DNA of 64,000 nucleotides from Steroidobacter agaridevorans (GTDB lineage Bacteria; Pseudomonadota; Gammaproteobacteria; Steroidobacterales; Steroidobacteraceae): assembly GCF_009932555.1 (NCBI RefSeq), contig NZ_BLJO01000012.1, positions 62,001 through 126,000 of the forward strand, given 5' to 3'. The translations under genes were made by a program, and so were the position numbers. Shown here piece after piece: positions 4,166-10,429 of this stretch; position 1 is the first letter of the stretch; each line of letters opens with the position of its first letter. The notes below the pieces were generated by a model. It searched no databases. It saw nothing but the letters and a program-made list of their open reading frames with translations, and had not been told where the DNA came from.

Positions 4166-4600
4166 TTATTGAAAGACCTGGGTCGGAGAGTAGTCCTGTA
4201 CTGTCAGCACGCGGTCTTCGATGTTGCCGACCAGCTGACCGTGCTGTGCGGCGGTCCGCTTCTTGATCGCGGCCCATTCCTGGTCGGCCATGAATTTTGC
4301 CCAGCGATCGGTCAGAGTCGCCCGATCCGGCCACTGTAACAAGTAAACGAATTCGGTGCGGCCCTCGTGCCGGGTTTCCCATTGCGCAACGATCTTGAAG
4401 TCGTACTTCGCCATGATGCGCATGGCGTGATCGCGGAAGCGTTCGTGGAACGCTTGTTTGTTGTTGTCGAAGATCTCGTAGATGCGCAGCTGATGAACTG
4501 CTGGTTGCTGCTCGGACGCCGCTGCCAGCTGCGGGACATTTGCAAATACGAGTGCCGCGGCAAATGTCAGGGCGGTGCGTCGCAGGAATTCCATCGCCAT
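4166..4600 (-). CDS. Secreted NIPSNAP-family protein
   Basis: A signal peptide of about 28 residues (cleavage near LAAAS) leads into one NIPSNAP-type domain of the dimeric alpha-beta-barrel fold: HQLRIYEIFDNNKQAFHERF, then DFKIVAQWETRHEGRTEFVY and LLQWPDRATLTDRW. Three in-frame ATGs stand close together; the first directly abuts the Shine-Dalgarno AAGGAG, so I prefer the second, six bases from it. The function of periplasmic NIPSNAP proteins is not established. The gene follows the ligase gene by about 30 bases and precedes the GFA gene on the same strand, so it may share the repair operon's transcript without sharing its role. Confidence 0.8.
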   Translation of the reverse strand: MAMEFLRRTALTFAAALVFANVPQLAAASEQQPAVHQLRIYEIFDNNKQAFHERFRDHAMRIMAKYDFKIVAQWETRHEGRTEFVYLLQWPDRATLTDRWAKFMADQEWAAIKKRTAAQHGQLVGNIEDRVLTVQDYSPTQVFQ

Positions 4601-4629
4601 TGCCATCTCCTTGTGTGAGGACGCGAATG

Positions 4630-6252
4630 TTAGCTGCTTCGGCGGACTTCGTCAGGCGCTTGCATGAGCATGGCTTGCAGATTCGCGAGCGTGTCTGCTT
4701 CGCTGGCGGGTTTGTCGGCGCGCCAGCGCAGGATTCTTGGAAAGCGCAGCGCGATGCCGGACTTGTGACGAGCCGACGCGGCGATGCCTTCATAGGCCAG
4801 TTCGAAAACCTGGCTGGGCTCCACCGAGCGCACGGGACCGAATTTCTCCAGCGTGTGCGCACGAATCCAGCGATCGAGCTGCTCGACCTCCGGATTGCTC
4901 AGGCCGGAATAGGCCTTGGCGACCGGCACGAGCTCTTGCTCGCGCCACACGCCGAACGTGTAGTCCGTGTATAGATTCGAGCGCCGGCCTTGGCCGGGTT
5001 GGGCGTAGATCATGACTGCGTCGAATGAGTGCGGCTCGATCTTCCATTTCCACCACGCGCCACGTTGGCGGCCGGTGCCGTAGCTCGAATCGAGCGCCTT
5101 CAGCATCAAGCCTTCGACATTGCGTTGTCGGGAGTCGGCGCGCGCGCCTGCAAGCTCGTCCCAGGTCGAGCCAATCACCAAGGGTGAGATTTGAAGGAGC
5201 GGCGATGCGTCTGCCAGCAACTTTTCCAGATGAGCACGACGTTCTCGCAAAGGCGCCGCGCGCAGATCCTGACCCTCCAGCTCGAGCAAGTCGTAGGCGA
5301 GAAACTGCACCGGCACGGTGGCCAGAATCGCGGCAGTGAGCTTCTTGCGGCCGATGCGCTGTTGTAACAACGCGAAGGGCTGAATGCTTCCGTCCTTCCA
5401 GGCGACGACTTCACCATCCAGCACGATGCCATCCGGTAGGCGGGCCGCCGCGTCGACGATTTCGGGAAAACGTTCGGTGATGCGTTCCTCGCCGCGCGAC
5501 CATAGGTGACATTCGCCCGCGCGCCGGATGAGCTGGCCGCGAATGCCATCCCATTTCCATTCGGCCTGCCACGCTTCGCGGTCGCCGAGCTGACTCGGCT
5601 CGCCTTCGAGCGGCGACGCCAGAAAGAAGGGATAAGGAACGGCTGGATCGGTCCGGGGGCTCTCGGCTGCATGCAGCCCTTGCCAGAAAAGCGCGCCCGG
5701 TTGCCATTCTCCCATGAGCCGGCCCGCGAGCTCGGTGCGCTCGATGCCGGTGACCTCGGCGAGCGCTCGTGTCACCAGCAGTTGCGATACGCCGACGCGC
5801 AACTCGCCGGTGAGCAGCTTGTTCAACAGGAAACATTGTCGATACGGCAGCTGGCGCCACCAGCCGGTGATGGACTGGCGCTGAATGTCGTCGTCCGCGT
5901 CACGCAATGGGAGCAGGCGATCTTCGATCCAGTCGGCGAGCGGAAGGTCGTCTGCGGTGGCTTCGCTGTGCGCCGTTCCGGCTGTAAGCAGCGCGATCGT
6001 TTCGGCTAGGTCGCCGACGGAAGCGTAGGCTTCATCGATCAACCATTCGGGCAGCGCGGCTTCGTCGATCAACCAGCGTTTCAACAAAGCCGGGCCGATG
6101 AAACGTTTGAGGCGGCGGCCAGATAATATGTACGTGGCCCATGCGGCGTCGGCCGGCGGCGCTTCGCGAAAATAGCGTGACATGGCCGCGACCTTGAGAT
6201 TGGTCGACTGCGTCGTGTCGAGCTCTTCGTAGAGTGCGGCGAAGGCTCTCAT
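4630..6252 (-). CDS. ATP-dependent DNA ligase, ligase-associated DNA damage response type
   Basis: This 540-residue ATP-dependent ligase seals DNA nicks. Residues 1-200 form the DNA-binding domain of LigB/Lig1-like enzymes. The adenylation motif EWKWDGIRG places the catalytic lysine at residue 233. Later nucleotidyltransferase motifs (VLDGEVVAW, NVEGLMLKALDSSYGTG and WWKWK) are present, and an OB-fold follows (FDAVMIYAQPGQGRRSNLYTD as its start). It belongs to the bacterial ligases encoded beside a metallo-beta-lactamase exonuclease. Here its ATG overlaps the stop of that exonuclease gene by four bases, showing translational coupling. The helicase and PdeM endonuclease partners common in such clusters are not in this window. 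Confidence 0.93.
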   Translation of the reverse strand: MRAFAALYEELDTTQSTNLKVAAMSRYFREAPPADAAWATYILSGRRLKRFIGPALLKRWLIDEAALPEWLIDEAYASVGDLAETIALLTAGTAHSEATADDLPLADWIEDRLLPLRDADDDIQRQSITGWWRQLPYRQCFLLNKLLTGELRVGVSQLLVTRALAEVTGIERTELAGRLMGEWQPGALFWQGLHAAESPRTDPAVPYPFFLASPLEGEPSQLGDREAWQAEWKWDGIRGQLIRRAGECHLWSRGEERITERFPEIVDAAARLPDGIVLDGEVVAWKDGSIQPFALLQQRIGRKKLTAAILATVPVQFLAYDLLELEGQDLRAAPLRERRAHLEKLLADASPLLQISPLVIGSTWDELAGARADSRQRNVEGLMLKALDSSYGTGRQRGAWWKWKIEPHSFDAVMIYAQPGQGRRSNLYTDYTFGVWREQELVPVAKAYSGLSNPEVEQLDRWIRAHTLEKFGPVRSVEPSQVFELAYEGIAASARHKSGIALRFPRILRWRADKPASEADTLANLQAMLMQAPDEVRRSS

Positions 6253-7256
6253 TGCTGCTCCTCATCGCCGTACGCCGTTTCGAGCGCACTGGCGGAGATG
6301 CCCAGCTCGTTCAAGTAGCGAGCGAGGGCGTCGGAGTAGCCATGAGTCAGCAGAATTCTTCGCGCGCCGGTCGCTTTGAATGTTTCGATCAGGCCAGGCC
6401 AATCAACGTGGTCTGAAAGAACGAAGCCGCGGTCATAGCCGCGTCGGCGACGATTGCCGCGCACTCGCATCCAACCGGAGCAGAAACCGCTGGAGTGATC
6501 GCCGAAGCGTCGCATCCACGGCGAGCCGGCCGCGCTCGGTGGGGCGATGATCAGTGCGCCTTTATAGTCAGTCTTGCGCTCGCCCGTGACCGGGAGGGTG
6601 GGGACCATCTCGACGCCTTGCTGTCGGTAGACCTCGGTGAGCACGTTGACCGCGCCATGCAAGTAGACCGTTTCATCGGTGAACGCCCGCAGCTCGGCCA
6701 GCACGCGCTGCGCCTTGCCGAGGGCGTAACAGAACAGCACCGACGCGAGTCCGCGTTCGCGATTGGCTCGCCACCAATGGAAAATCTCTTCGACCACTTC
6801 GACGGTCGGCTGCCATTGATACACCGGCAGCGCGAAAGTCGCTTCGCTGATGAAGACGTCGCATGCCAGCGGCTCGAACGGCGCACATGTCGGGTCGGGC
6901 TGCCGTTTGTAGTCGCCGGACACGACCCAAACCTGGCCTTCGTGCTCGATGCGCAGCTGCGCCGAGCCGAGAATGTGACCGGCAGGATGCAACGAAATTG
7001 TCGTCGATCCGAGTTGCAGCTGCTCGCCATATTTCAGCGGCATCGGATGATGGTCCGTTCCGAGGCGATGACGGGCGATAGCCACGCCGGGCTCGGCAAC
7101 GAAATAACGCGTGCTGCCATGGCGCAGATGATCGCCATGCGCGTGCGTGATGACGGCCGTGTCCACGGGCCGCCAGGGATCGATATGAAATCCCCCGGCC
7201 GGACAATAAAGGCCGTTCTCTGTCACGGTCACCAGCGGTGGCGGCATTGCGGACAT
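6249..7256 (-). CDS. Ligase-associated DNA damage response exonuclease (MBL/beta-CASP-like)
   Basis: The protein (335 residues) carries the metallo-beta-lactamase metal motif THAHGDHLRHG near residue 40, a second ligand region LHPAGHILGSAQ, and VSGDYKRQPDPT, followed by the late histidine LLTHGYSDALARYL. This matches the exonuclease family paired with ATP-dependent ligases in bacterial DNA damage clusters, distantly related to SNM1/Artemis-type nucleases. It should process DNA ends in the cytoplasm before sealing by the ligase. The gene begins 19 bases after the UdgX-fusion gene and overlaps the ligase start by four bases, so all are in one operon. Confidence 0.93.
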   Translation of the reverse strand: MSAMPPPLVTVTENGLYCPAGGFHIDPWRPVDTAVITHAHGDHLRHGSTRYFVAEPGVAIARHRLGTDHHPMPLKYGEQLQLGSTTISLHPAGHILGSAQLRIEHEGQVWVVSGDYKRQPDPTCAPFEPLACDVFISEATFALPVYQWQPTVEVVEEIFHWWRANRERGLASVLFCYALGKAQRVLAELRAFTDETVYLHGAVNVLTEVYRQQGVEMVPTLPVTGERKTDYKGALIIAPPSAAGSPWMRRFGDHSSGFCSGWMRVRGNRRRRGYDRGFVLSDHVDWPGLIETFKATGARRILLTHGYSDALARYLNELGISASALETAYGDEEQQ

Positions 7257-7275
7257 TTATAGAGCAAGCGCGCCG

Positions 7276-8667
7276 TCAGGCAGCGAGTTCCCGCGCACGA
7301 CGCAAGTCATCCACCAAGCGAGAGCGCAGCTGCCCGGCATTCGCCGGATCGGCCCGAAGGATGGCCGATGGATGATAGGTGCATACAATTTGCGCTCCGC
7401 TGGCGTGCGGGATTTGCAGCCGGCGCGCGGATTCGATCGAGTCGGTCAGGCCCGCGAGGGCGCGTAGTGCCGACGCGCCGAGGGCGACGATGATGCGAGG
7501 CTTGACCTGCGACACTTCGGCGTCGAGCCAGTGGTTGCATGCGGCCACTTCGGTCGTGGTTGGCCGCTGATGCAATCGACGCTTGCCGCGCGGCTGCCAT
7601 TTGAAATGTTTGACGGCGTTCGTGATGTATAGCTCGCCGCGTTCGAGGCCGGCGGTTGTCAGTGCGGCGTCGAGCACCCGGCCTGCGGGGCCGACGAAAG
7701 GACGGCCGCGCAGGTCTTCTTCATCGCCGGGCTGTTCGCCGACCAGCATGATGGTCGCCGACGTAGAGCCTTCGCCGGGAACGGCTTGGGTCGCGTGACG
7801 CCAGATGTCGCATCGGCGACAGGCGGAAGGTCCGCCGGAATGATCTGGTAAGTCTGCCAGTGCACGCTGCATGGCCCGAGCCTTGGCAAGCTCCATATCC
7901 GTGGCTTCGCGCTGTCGTTGGGCAAAGCTCGCCTGGCCATCTCGCAACAGCGTTTGAATCTCGACCGACTCCGGCAAGTTGCGCCAGTACCGCTGCGGCA
8001 TCTCGCGTCGCATGGCGGGTGGGTTGATGCGAGACACGTTGCAGATGTTCCGATAGTAGGTGCGCCACAAGCCTTCGTGAGCATCCGCTTTGGGCAGCGT
8101 CGCCTGGTCCGGCGTCTCGACAAACTGCAATTCGCCGTTCTGCCACAGCGCGGCGCCGTCCGGCGTCGCGATCATCCATTCCATGTTCGGAAACCGCTTG
8201 CAGAAGAACGCCACGCCCCGACGCAGGATGTCGTGACCCGGCTCGAACCAGGCGTAGTATTTCTTTTCGCCGTGCTCGTCGGCCATTTCGCGAAAGCGAA
8301 CGAACGCGTGCATCTTGTGCACTTCGCGGTTCACGGCGCTCTCCATTTGCATGGCGTGGTGTACGTCGGGATCGGCAGCGTCTTCCAGAAGGCGCGGCTG
8401 TCGCAGCGTACGCCAGGCGAGGCGATACATCAGATCCCAGCGGCCGTCGTGACGATAGCAACCGATCGCTTCGAGCAATTCGATCAGCTGTCGTGACAAT
8501 CGCAAAGATGTGGGGCCTGCCGCCGGCATGGCGGAGCCGTTGGATATCAATGGCTCGAATTGTCGGCCAACGCGCCACTCCATTTCCTCGGGCGCGATGC
8601 CGGCAGACAACAGCGGGCGCGCTACATCGCGCCATTGCGTGAATTCCTGTACGCAGGCTGAGTACAT
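7276..8667 (-). CDS. DUF4130 domain fused to UdgX-type uracil-DNA glycosylase
   Basis: I place the start at the ATG at 8667, two bases after the radical SAM stop, giving 463 residues; the frame stays open further upstream but only as antisense to that gene. Residues 1-255 match the DUF4130 (TIGR03915) putative repair domain. Residues 280-463 are a UdgX-type family-4-like uracil-DNA glycosylase: GEQPG at 310-314, the UdgX-specific loop KRRLHQRP with His366, and HPSA at 432-435. Cys283, Cys286, Cys377 and Cys429 fit the four iron-sulfur ligands. UdgX enzymes excise uracil and stay covalently bound to the abasic site through the loop histidine. The fusion and its radical SAM partner recur in bacteria, but the DUF4130 role is unknown. 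Confidence 0.93.
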   Translation of the reverse strand: MYSACVQEFTQWRDVARPLLSAGIAPEEMEWRVGRQFEPLISNGSAMPAAGPTSLRLSRQLIELLEAIGCYRHDGRWDLMYRLAWRTLRQPRLLEDAADPDVHHAMQMESAVNREVHKMHAFVRFREMADEHGEKKYYAWFEPGHDILRRGVAFFCKRFPNMEWMIATPDGAALWQNGELQFVETPDQATLPKADAHEGLWRTYYRNICNVSRINPPAMRREMPQRYWRNLPESVEIQTLLRDGQASFAQRQREATDMELAKARAMQRALADLPDHSGGPSACRRCDIWRHATQAVPGEGSTSATIMLVGEQPGDEEDLRGRPFVGPAGRVLDAALTTAGLERGELYITNAVKHFKWQPRGKRRLHQRPTTTEVAACNHWLDAEVSQVKPRIIVALGASALRALAGLTDSIESARRLQIPHASGAQIVCTYHPSAILRADPANAGQLRSRLVDDLRRARELAA

Positions 8668-8669
8668 CG

Positions 8670-9890
8670 TCAGAACAAAGATTGCTGTTCGGGCGCGCCG
8701 ATCAATGCACGGCGCAGCCCGTCGGAGCTGCGATCGCTTTGCCGCGGCCGATAATCGGCCGTGCAAATGAAATGGCGGGCGCGCTTCAGCGTTGCGCCGA
8801 GCGTTTTCAGGTCCTCGTAACGCAGCTGGCGATGGCGCCGCGAGCTGATGATGCGATCGATCACTCGCACACCTAGCCCTGGCACTCGCAGCAGCAGATG
8901 GCGATCGGCTGTGTTTACGTCCACCGGGAATTGATGACGATTCGCCAGGGCCCAGGTCGTCTTGGGATCCACGCTCAAATCGAGTTTGCCACCTGGCATG
9001 GACTGCGCCAGCTCGCCGACCGAGAACTCGTAGTAACGCATCAACCAATCGGCCTGATACAAGCGATGCTCGCGCATCAGCGGCGGCGCGCGATTCGGCA
9101 GGCGTGCCGAGGCACGTTGAATGGGGCTGAATGCCGAGTAATAGATTCGGCGCAGCTTGTACGAGCGATACAGCGTGTCTGCCGTCTCGATGATGGACGC
9201 ATCGGAGCTGTCGTCGGCGCCGACGATGAGCTGCGTGCTCTGGCCCGCGGGAGAGAAGCGCGGGGCCGTCGCCCCGCCGTCCGCTTTTTCGTCAAGCTTG
9301 AGTCGAATCTCGCCCATGGCGCGCTTGATGGAGACATCGCTTTTTTCCGGCGCCAGCGTTGTCAGCGCTTCACGCGTCGGCAGTTCGATGTTGACGCTCA
9401 AGCGATCGGCGTAGCGACCGGCGGCCTCGACCAGCTCGGGGCTCGCCTCGGGAATGGTCTTCAAATGAATGTAGCCGCGAAACTCGTGCTCTTCGCGCAG
9501 CGTGCGCGCCACTTCCACCAGTTGTTCCATCGTGTAATCGGCATTGCGGATGATGCCGGAGCTGAGGAACAGGCCTTCGATGTAGTTGCGTCGATAGAAA
9601 TAGAGCGTCAGGTCGACCACTTCCTGCGCCGAGAAGCGTGCTCGTGGGATGTCGCTCGAGCGGCGGTTGATGCAATACAGGCAGTCGTACAGGCAGAAGT
9701 TGGTCAGCAGGATCTTCAGCAGAGACACGCAGCGACCGTCGGGCGTGTAGCTGTGACAGATGCCCATGCCCGTGGTCGAGCCCATGCCTTTGCCCGGAGC
9801 GGCGCTGCGTTTGGGCGCACCGCTGCTGGCGCACGAAGCGTCGTATTTGGCGGCATCGGCCAGGATGGCGAGCTTGGTCTCCAGATCCAT
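8670..9890 (-). CDS. Putative DNA modification/repair radical SAM protein
   Basis: This protein resembles the TIGR03916 radical SAM family, distantly like spore photoproduct lyase and always found with UdgX/DUF4130 proteins. The cluster motif is NFCLYDCLYC, with three cysteines binding a 4Fe-4S cluster. The N-terminus (MDLETKLAILADAAKYDASC) is the family's typical beginning, so I take the ATG at 9890 rather than an upstream TTG at 9926. The C-terminal part contains a helix-hairpin-helix-like DNA-binding segment (VDVNTADRHLLLRVPGLG). It heads a minus-strand operon running into the UdgX fusion, exonuclease and ligase. The substrate lesion or modification is not known. Confidence 0.9.
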   Translation of the reverse strand: MDLETKLAILADAAKYDASCASSGAPKRSAAPGKGMGSTTGMGICHSYTPDGRCVSLLKILLTNFCLYDCLYCINRRSSDIPRARFSAQEVVDLTLYFYRRNYIEGLFLSSGIIRNADYTMEQLVEVARTLREEHEFRGYIHLKTIPEASPELVEAAGRYADRLSVNIELPTREALTTLAPEKSDVSIKRAMGEIRLKLDEKADGGATAPRFSPAGQSTQLIVGADDSSDASIIETADTLYRSYKLRRIYYSAFSPIQRASARLPNRAPPLMREHRLYQADWLMRYYEFSVGELAQSMPGGKLDLSVDPKTTWALANRHQFPVDVNTADRHLLLRVPGLGVRVIDRIISSRRHRQLRYEDLKTLGATLKRARHFICTADYRPRQSDRSSDGLRRALIGAPEQQSLF

Positions 9891-9896
9891 GTCTGG

Positions 9897-9908
9897 CTGT
9901 ATATACAG
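9897..9908. promoter_or_regulatory. 12-bp perfect palindrome upstream of the repair operon
   Basis: CTGTATATACAG lies just upstream of the radical SAM start codon and reads the same on both strands. It resembles the ends of enterobacterial LexA boxes (CTGT...ACAG), but only four bases separate the half-sites instead of eight, so it is not a canonical SOS box. A second inverted repeat, GCTGTCAG at 9940-9947 and CTGACAGC at 9973-9980, lies between this site and the upstream Lrp gene. Either could be an operator; both assignments are inference. Confidence 0.35.
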
Positions 9909-9982: not shown

Positions 9983-10429
9983 TCAGCGTTGGAACTTGGT
10001 GGACAGGACGATGGAAGAGGTGGTGCGTTCGACGCCGTCCAGTTCGCCGATCGAGTCGATCAACTCGTCCATGTCGGTGATGGAATCGGTGACGGCCAGC
10101 GCCATCAGATCGAATGCGCCGCTGACGGCCTGCAGAACGCGCACGTCTTTGAGCTTGCGGACTTCGCGCTCGACCTGGCTTGCATGCTTCGGCTTCACCG
10201 TGATCATGACGTAGGCATGCACGGCGCCGCGCTCCTGCGTCTCCGACAGGCGCACCGAATAGCCCGTGATCACCTTGGATCGCTCCAGCCGTTCCAGCCG
10301 GCTCTGCACGGTCGTGCGCGACAGCCCGAGGCTGCGGGCGAGGACGGCGGTCGGGGCGCGAGCGTTCTCGCGCAACAGCGCGATCAGTTGCTGGTCGATG
10401 GAGTCGAGAGGTTGCGGGCGCGGCTTCAT
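9983..10429 (-). CDS. Lrp/AsnC-family transcriptional regulator
   Basis: The 148-residue protein has the standard Lrp layout. An N-terminal winged helix-turn-helix (LDSIDQQLIALLRENARAPT, then RSLGLSRTTVQSRLERLER) is followed by an alpha-beta RAM effector domain (VHAYVMITVKPKHASQVERE, then SGAFDLMALAVTDSITDMDE). The frame remains open far upstream, but those codons are antisense to the dehydrogenase gene, so the ATG at 10429 is the start. It is divergent from the saccharopine dehydrogenase-like gene, 120 bases apart. Lrp proteins usually control the adjacent amino-acid pathway and themselves, so lysine-derived intermediates are the likely effectors, by inference. Confidence 0.92.
   Translation of the reverse strand: MKPRPQPLDSIDQQLIALLRENARAPTAVLARSLGLSRTTVQSRLERLERSKVITGYSVRLSETQERGAVHAYVMITVKPKHASQVEREVRKLKDVRVLQAVSGAFDLMALAVTDSITDMDELIDSIGELDGVERTTSSIVLSTKFQR

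Follow-up and report, generated by a model that had tools for sequence, protein, structure and literature searches.

The stretch analysed here (the window) comprises 64,000 nucleotides of the Steroidobacter agaridevorans genome (assembly GCF_009932555.1, contig NZ_BLJO01000012.1, positions 62,001 to 126,000 of the forward strand), and we investigated a run of four predicted DNA repair genes within it. Head to tail on the minus strand, the run encodes a radical S-adenosylmethionine (SAM) protein, a DUF4130-UdgX fusion, a beta-CASP exonuclease and an ATP-dependent DNA ligase. The radical SAM and fusion genes are separated by 2 bases (8668-8669), the fusion and exonuclease genes by 19 bases (7257-7275), and the exonuclease and ligase genes overlap by 4 bases (6249-6252). 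Rechecking of the coordinates confirmed this order, strand and spacing, which had been described in an earlier note on the same DNA. For family assignment the curated NCBIfam cut-offs were used, and all four proteins score above them (Table 1). The three curated families of the UdgX-DUF4130-radical SAM set are over cut-off and adjoin each other, and the TIGR04122 exonuclease adjoins the TIGR04120 ligase, the core of the ligase-associated cluster. With all families over their cut-offs, a single operon-like run joins two gene sets that were described separately, as the earlier note had also proposed. Genomes and loci of the survey are cited by G and L numbers; the window genome is G000.

Table 1. 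Positions of the four genes, the upstream box and neighbouring features in the window, and of the corresponding genes at locus L137
Feature	Locus	Position	Strand	Family score or remark
Radical SAM protein, putative DNA modification/repair	window	8670-9890	-	TIGR03916, 567.5 bits (cut-off 343.5)
DUF4130-UdgX fusion	window	7276-8667	-	TIGR03915, 202 bits (112.25); TIGR03914, 257.3 bits (189.95)
Metallo-beta-lactamase/beta-CASP exonuclease, ligase-associated	window	6249-7256	-	TIGR04122, 486.8 bits (cut-off 325)
ATP-dependent DNA ligase, LigB type, 'cisplatin damage response'	window	4630-6252	-	TIGR04120, 639.4 bits (cut-off 400)
LexA-like box CTGTATATACAGCCAG, CTG-N10-CAG	window	9893-9908	-	3-18 bases upstream of the start codon of the radical SAM gene
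Perfect palindrome CTGTATATACAG in the box	window	9897-9908		
R-loop KRRLH of the fusion	window	7570-7584		
Linking histidine H366	window	7570-7572		
Lrp/AsnC regulator gene	window	9983-10429	-	92 bases upstream of the radical SAM gene
NIPSNAP-domain gene	window	4166-4606		downstream of the ligase gene
Radical SAM protein	L137	7628-8878		
DUF4130-UdgX fusion	L137	8875-10302		
Exonuclease	L137	10302-11315		
Ligase	L137	ends 12982		

Protein domains and structure models

The radical SAM protein, which we take to be COG4277, contains the CX3CX2C cysteines of the cluster, and C66, C70 and C73 are invariant in 32 aligned rows. At its C-terminus a weak helix-hairpin-helix match was found (HHH_3, below the gathering score). 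The structure model has a mean predicted local distance difference test (pLDDT) value of 76.5, and residues 64-80, including the cluster cysteines, are below 50. The 50 solved-structure matches listed for this model are other radical SAM enzymes of a generic kind; spore photoproduct lyase is not among them, the cluster region being modelled at low confidence.

In the fusion protein DUF4130 extends over approximately residues 5-233 and UdgX over approximately residues 248-457, with Pfam matches to DUF4130 and UDG. Residues invariant in the DUF4130 part include D99, R114, H117, H145, W164, Y204 and Y205. The UdgX motif set consists of GEQPG, KRR(I/L)H with the linking histidine, and HPS (PMC10359453). 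This set is complete in the window fusion, as GEQPG, the loop K362-R-R-L-H366 and HPSAILR. The PDB entries that match the UdgX part best are themselves UdgX proteins (E 2.5e-50); GEQPG and the KRR(I/L)H loop are aligned in these matches, and the closest solved structures are those of M. smegmatis UdgX. The model of the fusion has a mean pLDDT of 85.3, and among the 50 Foldseek matches listed 49 are uracil or thymine/mismatch glycosylases; the remaining one is a phage polymerase (9qhs) that was sequence-aligned to the UDG part. The exonuclease matches nucleases such as TTHA0252 and CPSF73/CPSF3 in PDB sequence searches, and all three Pfam ATP-ligase domains are present in the ligase.

Two loci of a Pseudomonas type, L094 (11236-12570) and L204 (G791), have kept DUF4130 and carry a UdgX domain without GEQPG and the KRRLH loop; judged by these missing motifs, this domain looks changed out of an enzyme. 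At locus L195 (G486) the radical SAM protein reaches 659 bits, the top family score of the phylum sample, yet it is 49% like that of the window and sits on a very long branch; DUF4130 is present there and no UdgX was found. Searches for a role in anti-phage defence gave no match of any of the four proteins to PADLOC models at E 0.001, and with regard to a phage origin the PHROGs matches were to polymerase, unknown and ligase families, with none for the radical SAM protein or the exonuclease. Both candidates were rejected.

Occurrence of the joined order and of the helicase and PdeM genes

A survey of other genomes revealed that the order is not unique to the window genome; it is shared by five genomes of the genus (G000, G002, G008, G010 and G011) and by one unrelated genome. 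The four genus mates have the same order, nearly the same spacing and protein identities of 83-97%. Locus L057 from a Steroidobacter sp. metagenome-assembled genome (MAG) is the same contig as that of G008, with identical radical SAM and ligase proteins. The unrelated genome, G619 (locus L137, family code f226), belongs to the same phylum and another class; its four genes match those of the window in kind and order, and all are over the cut-offs. Compared with the window proteins, its exonuclease and ligase show 39-40% identity, and in the trees the ligase falls among those of the G619 family. Approximately unbiased (AU) tests on quick trees of chosen subsets, 37 rows for the ligase and 39 for the radical SAM protein, reject a single origin of the window group and L137 (p-AU 4.2e-7 and 3.1e-50, respectively); an earlier ligase tree had left out L141 and L192. 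These tests indicate that the same joining arose independently at least twice. Because the order is kept in the genus and was assembled independently, a chance adjacency is unlikely.

Other arrangements bring the two modules close to each other in different ways. In L123 (Pseudomonas sp. MAG CSMAG_1243) both modules are contiguous and on one strand, as in the window, but the order is exonuclease-ligase-Lhr-PdeM-radical SAM-DUF4130; the radical SAM-DUF4130 part is thus placed last, no UdgX domain was found, and the sequence is a metagenome assembly. The modules are more loosely linked in G522, G745, G829 and G890, and in G628 a radical SAM-UdgX pair lies 1.2 kb after an Lhr-like gene. In Phaeobacter inhibens DSM 17395 both modules are located on plasmid pPGA1_262 (L217, 12070-21479), near each other as in the window, but divergent and 4.2 kb apart, with MATE, topoisomerase IB and dehydrogenase genes between them; a MATE and a dehydrogenase gene also intervene in G522. 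Among Phaeobacter plasmid records, counted separately for each protein, 58 match the radical SAM protein and 58 match the exonuclease; the arrangement given here is that of the single record of pPGA1_262.

Apart from G000, 68 genomes of the phylum sample have both genes; linkage within 10 kb was found in three of them, G619, G522 and G745, where random placement would give 0.32-0.47 (P 0.004-0.012). In the family of G619 it was found in 3 of 101 such genomes (G619, G890 and G829; 0.71 expected, P 0.036 including G619).

Two common partners of the exonuclease and ligase were searched for separately. The window genome (8.0 Mb, assembly 97.3% complete) contains no Lhr-Core helicase (TIGR04121) over the cut-off, the best match reaching 453 bits against a cut-off of 850, and no match to PdeM (TIGR04123) at E 0.001. 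Neither family was over its cut-off in any of the five operon genomes of the genus, whereas all nine ligase genomes from outside the family hold both in the same searches. The 453-bit match to the Lhr-Core model belongs to a long Lhr-type frame (G000:C10:258420-260993, L002; open frame of 1478 amino acids), which is perhaps of the E. coli Lhr type with a uracil glycosylase domain.

G012 of the same genus and G016 of the same family possess the ligase and lack both Lhr-Core and PdeM in the same searches, and their ligase and radical SAM genes are on different contigs; the absence of helicase and PdeM is therefore not tied to the joining. The radical SAM copies of these two genomes belong to another lineage. 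G032, also of the same family, has the full exonuclease-ligase-Lhr-PdeM cluster without the radical SAM gene. In the ligase tree G012, G016 and G032 cluster with the genus, with support of 80-87 for some forks, and G032 branches outside the group formed by G012, G016, G947 and the operon genomes (support 80 for the group). Since G012 and G016 lack both genes and G032 branches outside, the loss of helicase and PdeM in the family probably preceded the joining. G619 has the joined order, yet helicase and PdeM were kept.

Where the genes are contiguous, helicase and PdeM follow the ligase (L123, L138, L143, L146, L149, L155, L158-L161, L212, L214 and L215); the helicase gene is divergent or a few kb away in L147, L150, L152, L156, L157, L162, L165 and L171. 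The radical SAM pair precedes the exonuclease, and the idea that it stands where helicase and PdeM would be had to be abandoned. By its gene content the window locus is a truncated, joined variant and not a full ligase-associated cluster.

LexA-type boxes and co-occurrence of the modules

The box in front of the window operon is found as the same variant, CTGTATATACAGCCAG, at the same spot in all five genus genomes with the operon, and it is a putative LexA-binding site. A full CTGTN8ACAG box stands at this spot in L058 and L059, which are closest to the window in the radical SAM protein; G016 carries CTGTATATACATCCAG, the sequence GTTCCTGATATGTTC of L137 begins 33 bases before the radical SAM start, and on pPGA1_262 the box GAACATATATAGAAC begins 17 bases before it. 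We take CTGTN8ACAG to be the gamma/beta pattern of LexA, and GAACN7GAAC or GTTCN7GTTC to be the alpha pattern. The former is present upstream of the radical SAM gene in 61 of 109 interrelated loci of the window's class and named relatives. One of the alpha patterns was detected in 25 of 25 alpha-type loci, likewise interrelated, a set of 24 phylum loci outside the window's class plus L120 (Methylobacterium) that was drawn up after the boxes had been seen. Control stretches of equal length elsewhere in the same loci contained LexA-type boxes in 0-2 of 130-135 cases. These counts omit the duplicate loci L001-L040, L057, L197 and L209; L217 was added later.

None of the 47 exonuclease, 51 ligase, 25 helicase and 14 PdeM genes has a strict pattern upstream, many of these upstream stretches falling within the preceding gene. 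The loose form CTG-N10-CAG occurs upstream of 79 of 134 radical SAM genes and of none of the 47 exonuclease genes. Since the boxes belong to the radical SAM operons and are absent upstream of exonuclease and ligase, joining probably puts the trimming and sealing genes under SOS control; the likeliest effect would be LexA control of two genes, exonuclease and ligase, that do not normally have a box of this kind. For the COG1573-COG4277 pair, SOS control was reported or predicted in Bacteroidetes, Verrucomicrobia and Alphaproteobacteria (PMC8565304). A group of loci without CTGTN8ACAG (L063, L064, L066, L070, L073, L065, L102 and L048) has a common palindrome, GTCTCA-N5/6-TGAGAC, before the radical SAM gene, as recognized by eye; the named loci of this group are Xanthomonadaceae/Lysobacteraceae, and the palindrome is perhaps the site of another repressor.

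The two modules usually share a genome even when they are unlinked. Caulobacter vibrioides, for example, gave matches in the control searches for both families. In the phylum sample (398 genomes) the radical SAM gene is present in 84, the ligase in 116 and both in 69, against 24.5 expected (Fisher 4e-31). The class sample (369 genomes, the count leaving out G399 with a ligase below the cut-off) gave 11, 12 and 7, against 0.36 expected (p 1.4e-9), and the family of G619 (159 genomes, counting the split or partial ligases of G876 and G907 and the partial radical SAM gene of G906) gave 105, 130 and 101, against 85.8 expected (p 1.6e-10). The samples overlap, with G000 in the phylum and class samples and G619 in the phylum and family samples. 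At the genus level, 41 of 46 radical SAM genera in the phylum (p 5e-21) and 70 of 71 in G619's family (p 9e-8) also hold the ligase; genus sets were taken by eye from tables, and genera are still non-independent. Within the window's own family (37 genomes) the ligase is over the cut-off in all 7 genomes with the radical SAM gene and in 1 of the 30 others, where G017 (contig end, 301 bits) and G001, G005 and G006 (207-209 bits) were scored as without ligase. This strong, mostly unlinked co-occurrence backs the working link between the modules that the earlier note had imagined. Taken together, the repeated joining and the usual presence of both modules in one genome argue that the two modules probably work together.

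Interpretation of the joined locus

We regard the locus as best explained by a single SOS operon in which a base-lesion module lies ahead of a trimming and sealing module, so that all four proteins would be made together, from one shared transcript, upon LexA cleavage. The radical SAM protein and DUF4130 would alter or recognize a damaged base, and UdgX would remove uracil or a base converted into something similar to it, holding the abasic site via H366. The exonuclease would then trim the broken or blocked end and the ligase would close the nick, the presumed order of reactions being base alteration, uracil removal, trimming and sealing. Helicase and PdeM would not be needed here, or other enzymes would take their place. 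UdgX is known to excise uracil and to become bonded to the abasic site; for its resolution, RecA-dependent pathways or proteases have been proposed (PMC10359453). In E. coli, Lhr has a uracil-DNA glycosylase domain of its own (PMC10953399), which hints independently that such a glycosylase has its place close to this set of repair genes.

Several observations speak against this explanation. Close linkage is rare: the 80 best named loci, some of which are short contigs, hold one four-gene run (L057) and one six-gene run (L123), and within 5 kb the modules are linked in G619 alone of the 101 genomes of its family sample with both genes. Both genes are on one contig in 25 of 69 genomes of the phylum sample and in 49 of 101 of G619's family, and linkage is invisible elsewhere. 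The matches of genus g1 within its own family may represent one event. Among the 109 loci, the strict CTGTN8ACAG pattern is missing from the window, its four genus mates and 43 others; the loose form also precedes some ligase genes (5 of 51), helicase genes (7 of 25) and PdeM genes (2 of 14) and occurs 22 times in the window, and a simple scan detected no promoter-like site ahead of the operon. The co-occurrence counts were made without species-tree correction, and in the phylum sample 15 of 84 radical SAM genomes are without such a ligase and 47 of 116 ligase genomes without the radical SAM gene. Because contigs limit the linkage counts and the loose box occurs elsewhere, our confidence in the single SOS operon was set slightly lower and is moderate.

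The joining could instead be a matter of regulatory convenience: both modules may answer the same stresses, and joining would lend the SOS promoter to exonuclease and ligase while each module acts on lesions of its own and no intermediate passes between them. The LexA-type boxes on one module only, the rarity of close linkage, and the ligase genomes without a radical SAM gene, in which exonuclease and ligase must have other work, all fit this possibility, but the near nesting of the radical SAM gene in ligase genomes (69 of 84, 101 of 105 and 7 of 7) suggests dependence and not mere shared stress, and we consider it a tentative alternative. A more specific pathway has also been considered, in which UdgX acts as a suicide glycosylase that covalently traps and shields uracil or abasic sites during the SOS response, the exonuclease removes the UdgX-bound nucleotides, the ligase seals, and the radical SAM protein and DUF4130 make or prepare the substrate of UdgX. 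In eukaryotes the beta-CASP fold class digests past crosslinks. Such a self-contained pathway would explain why, among 62 loci of known ligase status, the ligase is present in 36 of 43 genomes with a UdgX domain and in 8 of 19 with DUF4130 and no UdgX found (Fisher p 0.0018). A tree-based paired test does not confirm this dependence (median p 0.5, too few informative pairs), and the pathway appears rather doubtful.

If the radical SAM-UdgX pair had assumed the function of the Lhr-Core helicase and the PdeM endonuclease after their loss, the lack of both in the operon genomes, set against their presence in the nine outside ligase genomes, would be accounted for, and the glycosylase domain of E. 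coli Lhr (PMC10953399) makes a nearby uracil glycosylase not odd. Such a replacement is unlikely, as the loss in G012 and G016 came without joining and G619 is joined and keeps both genes. Very unlikely, finally, is a repair island spread by transfer or plasmids, in which gene order reflects shared travel and not shared function. The proximity of the modules on pPGA1_262, the 158 plasmid records that hold a relative of the radical SAM gene and the patchy distribution in the genus would agree with passenger linkage, but the exonuclease and ligase side follows family lines while the radical SAM genes of G012 and G016 come from another lineage, so that no single block was carried, and the guanine plus cytosine content of the four genes (0.62-0.63) equals that of the window (0.625).

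Both halves of the run resemble known systems. The UdgX-DUF4130-radical SAM operon (COG1573-COG4277; TIGR03914/03915/03916), considered a putative base excision system of the SOS response (PMC8565304), has the same domains and a LexA-type box in front, but the window run continues into exonuclease and ligase and its box is a genus variant. DUF4130 has been predicted to be an enzyme and to be associated with SplB-like radical SAM proteins and uracil glycosylases (PMC3765255). The LigB or ligase-associated damage response cluster (TIGR04120-04123; exonuclease, ligase, Lhr-Core and PdeM/MPE) likewise has exonuclease followed by ligase, but the window genome is without Lhr-Core over the cut-off or PdeM, and the pair is joined to an SOS-type operon. 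No report of the four-gene order was found in the accessible literature searched, and subscription papers may differ; ligase-associated proteins appear together with a radical SAM protein in a table of PMC9611098, and the word 'operon' is absent from PMC10776899 and PMC10359453 as available. The locus is new as a joined variant, assembled on at least two occasions, of two modules that were already known; it does not represent a new type of system.

The physiological role of UdgX has been called largely unknown (PMC10359453), and for the LigB-cluster pathway the role and the lesions repaired are stated as not known (PMC10140301). With neither module having an agreed role, the operon and the co-occurrence of the modules indicate which genes to test together. 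The single SOS operon predicts that, in G619 as in this genus, exonuclease and ligase would have become part of the SOS response.

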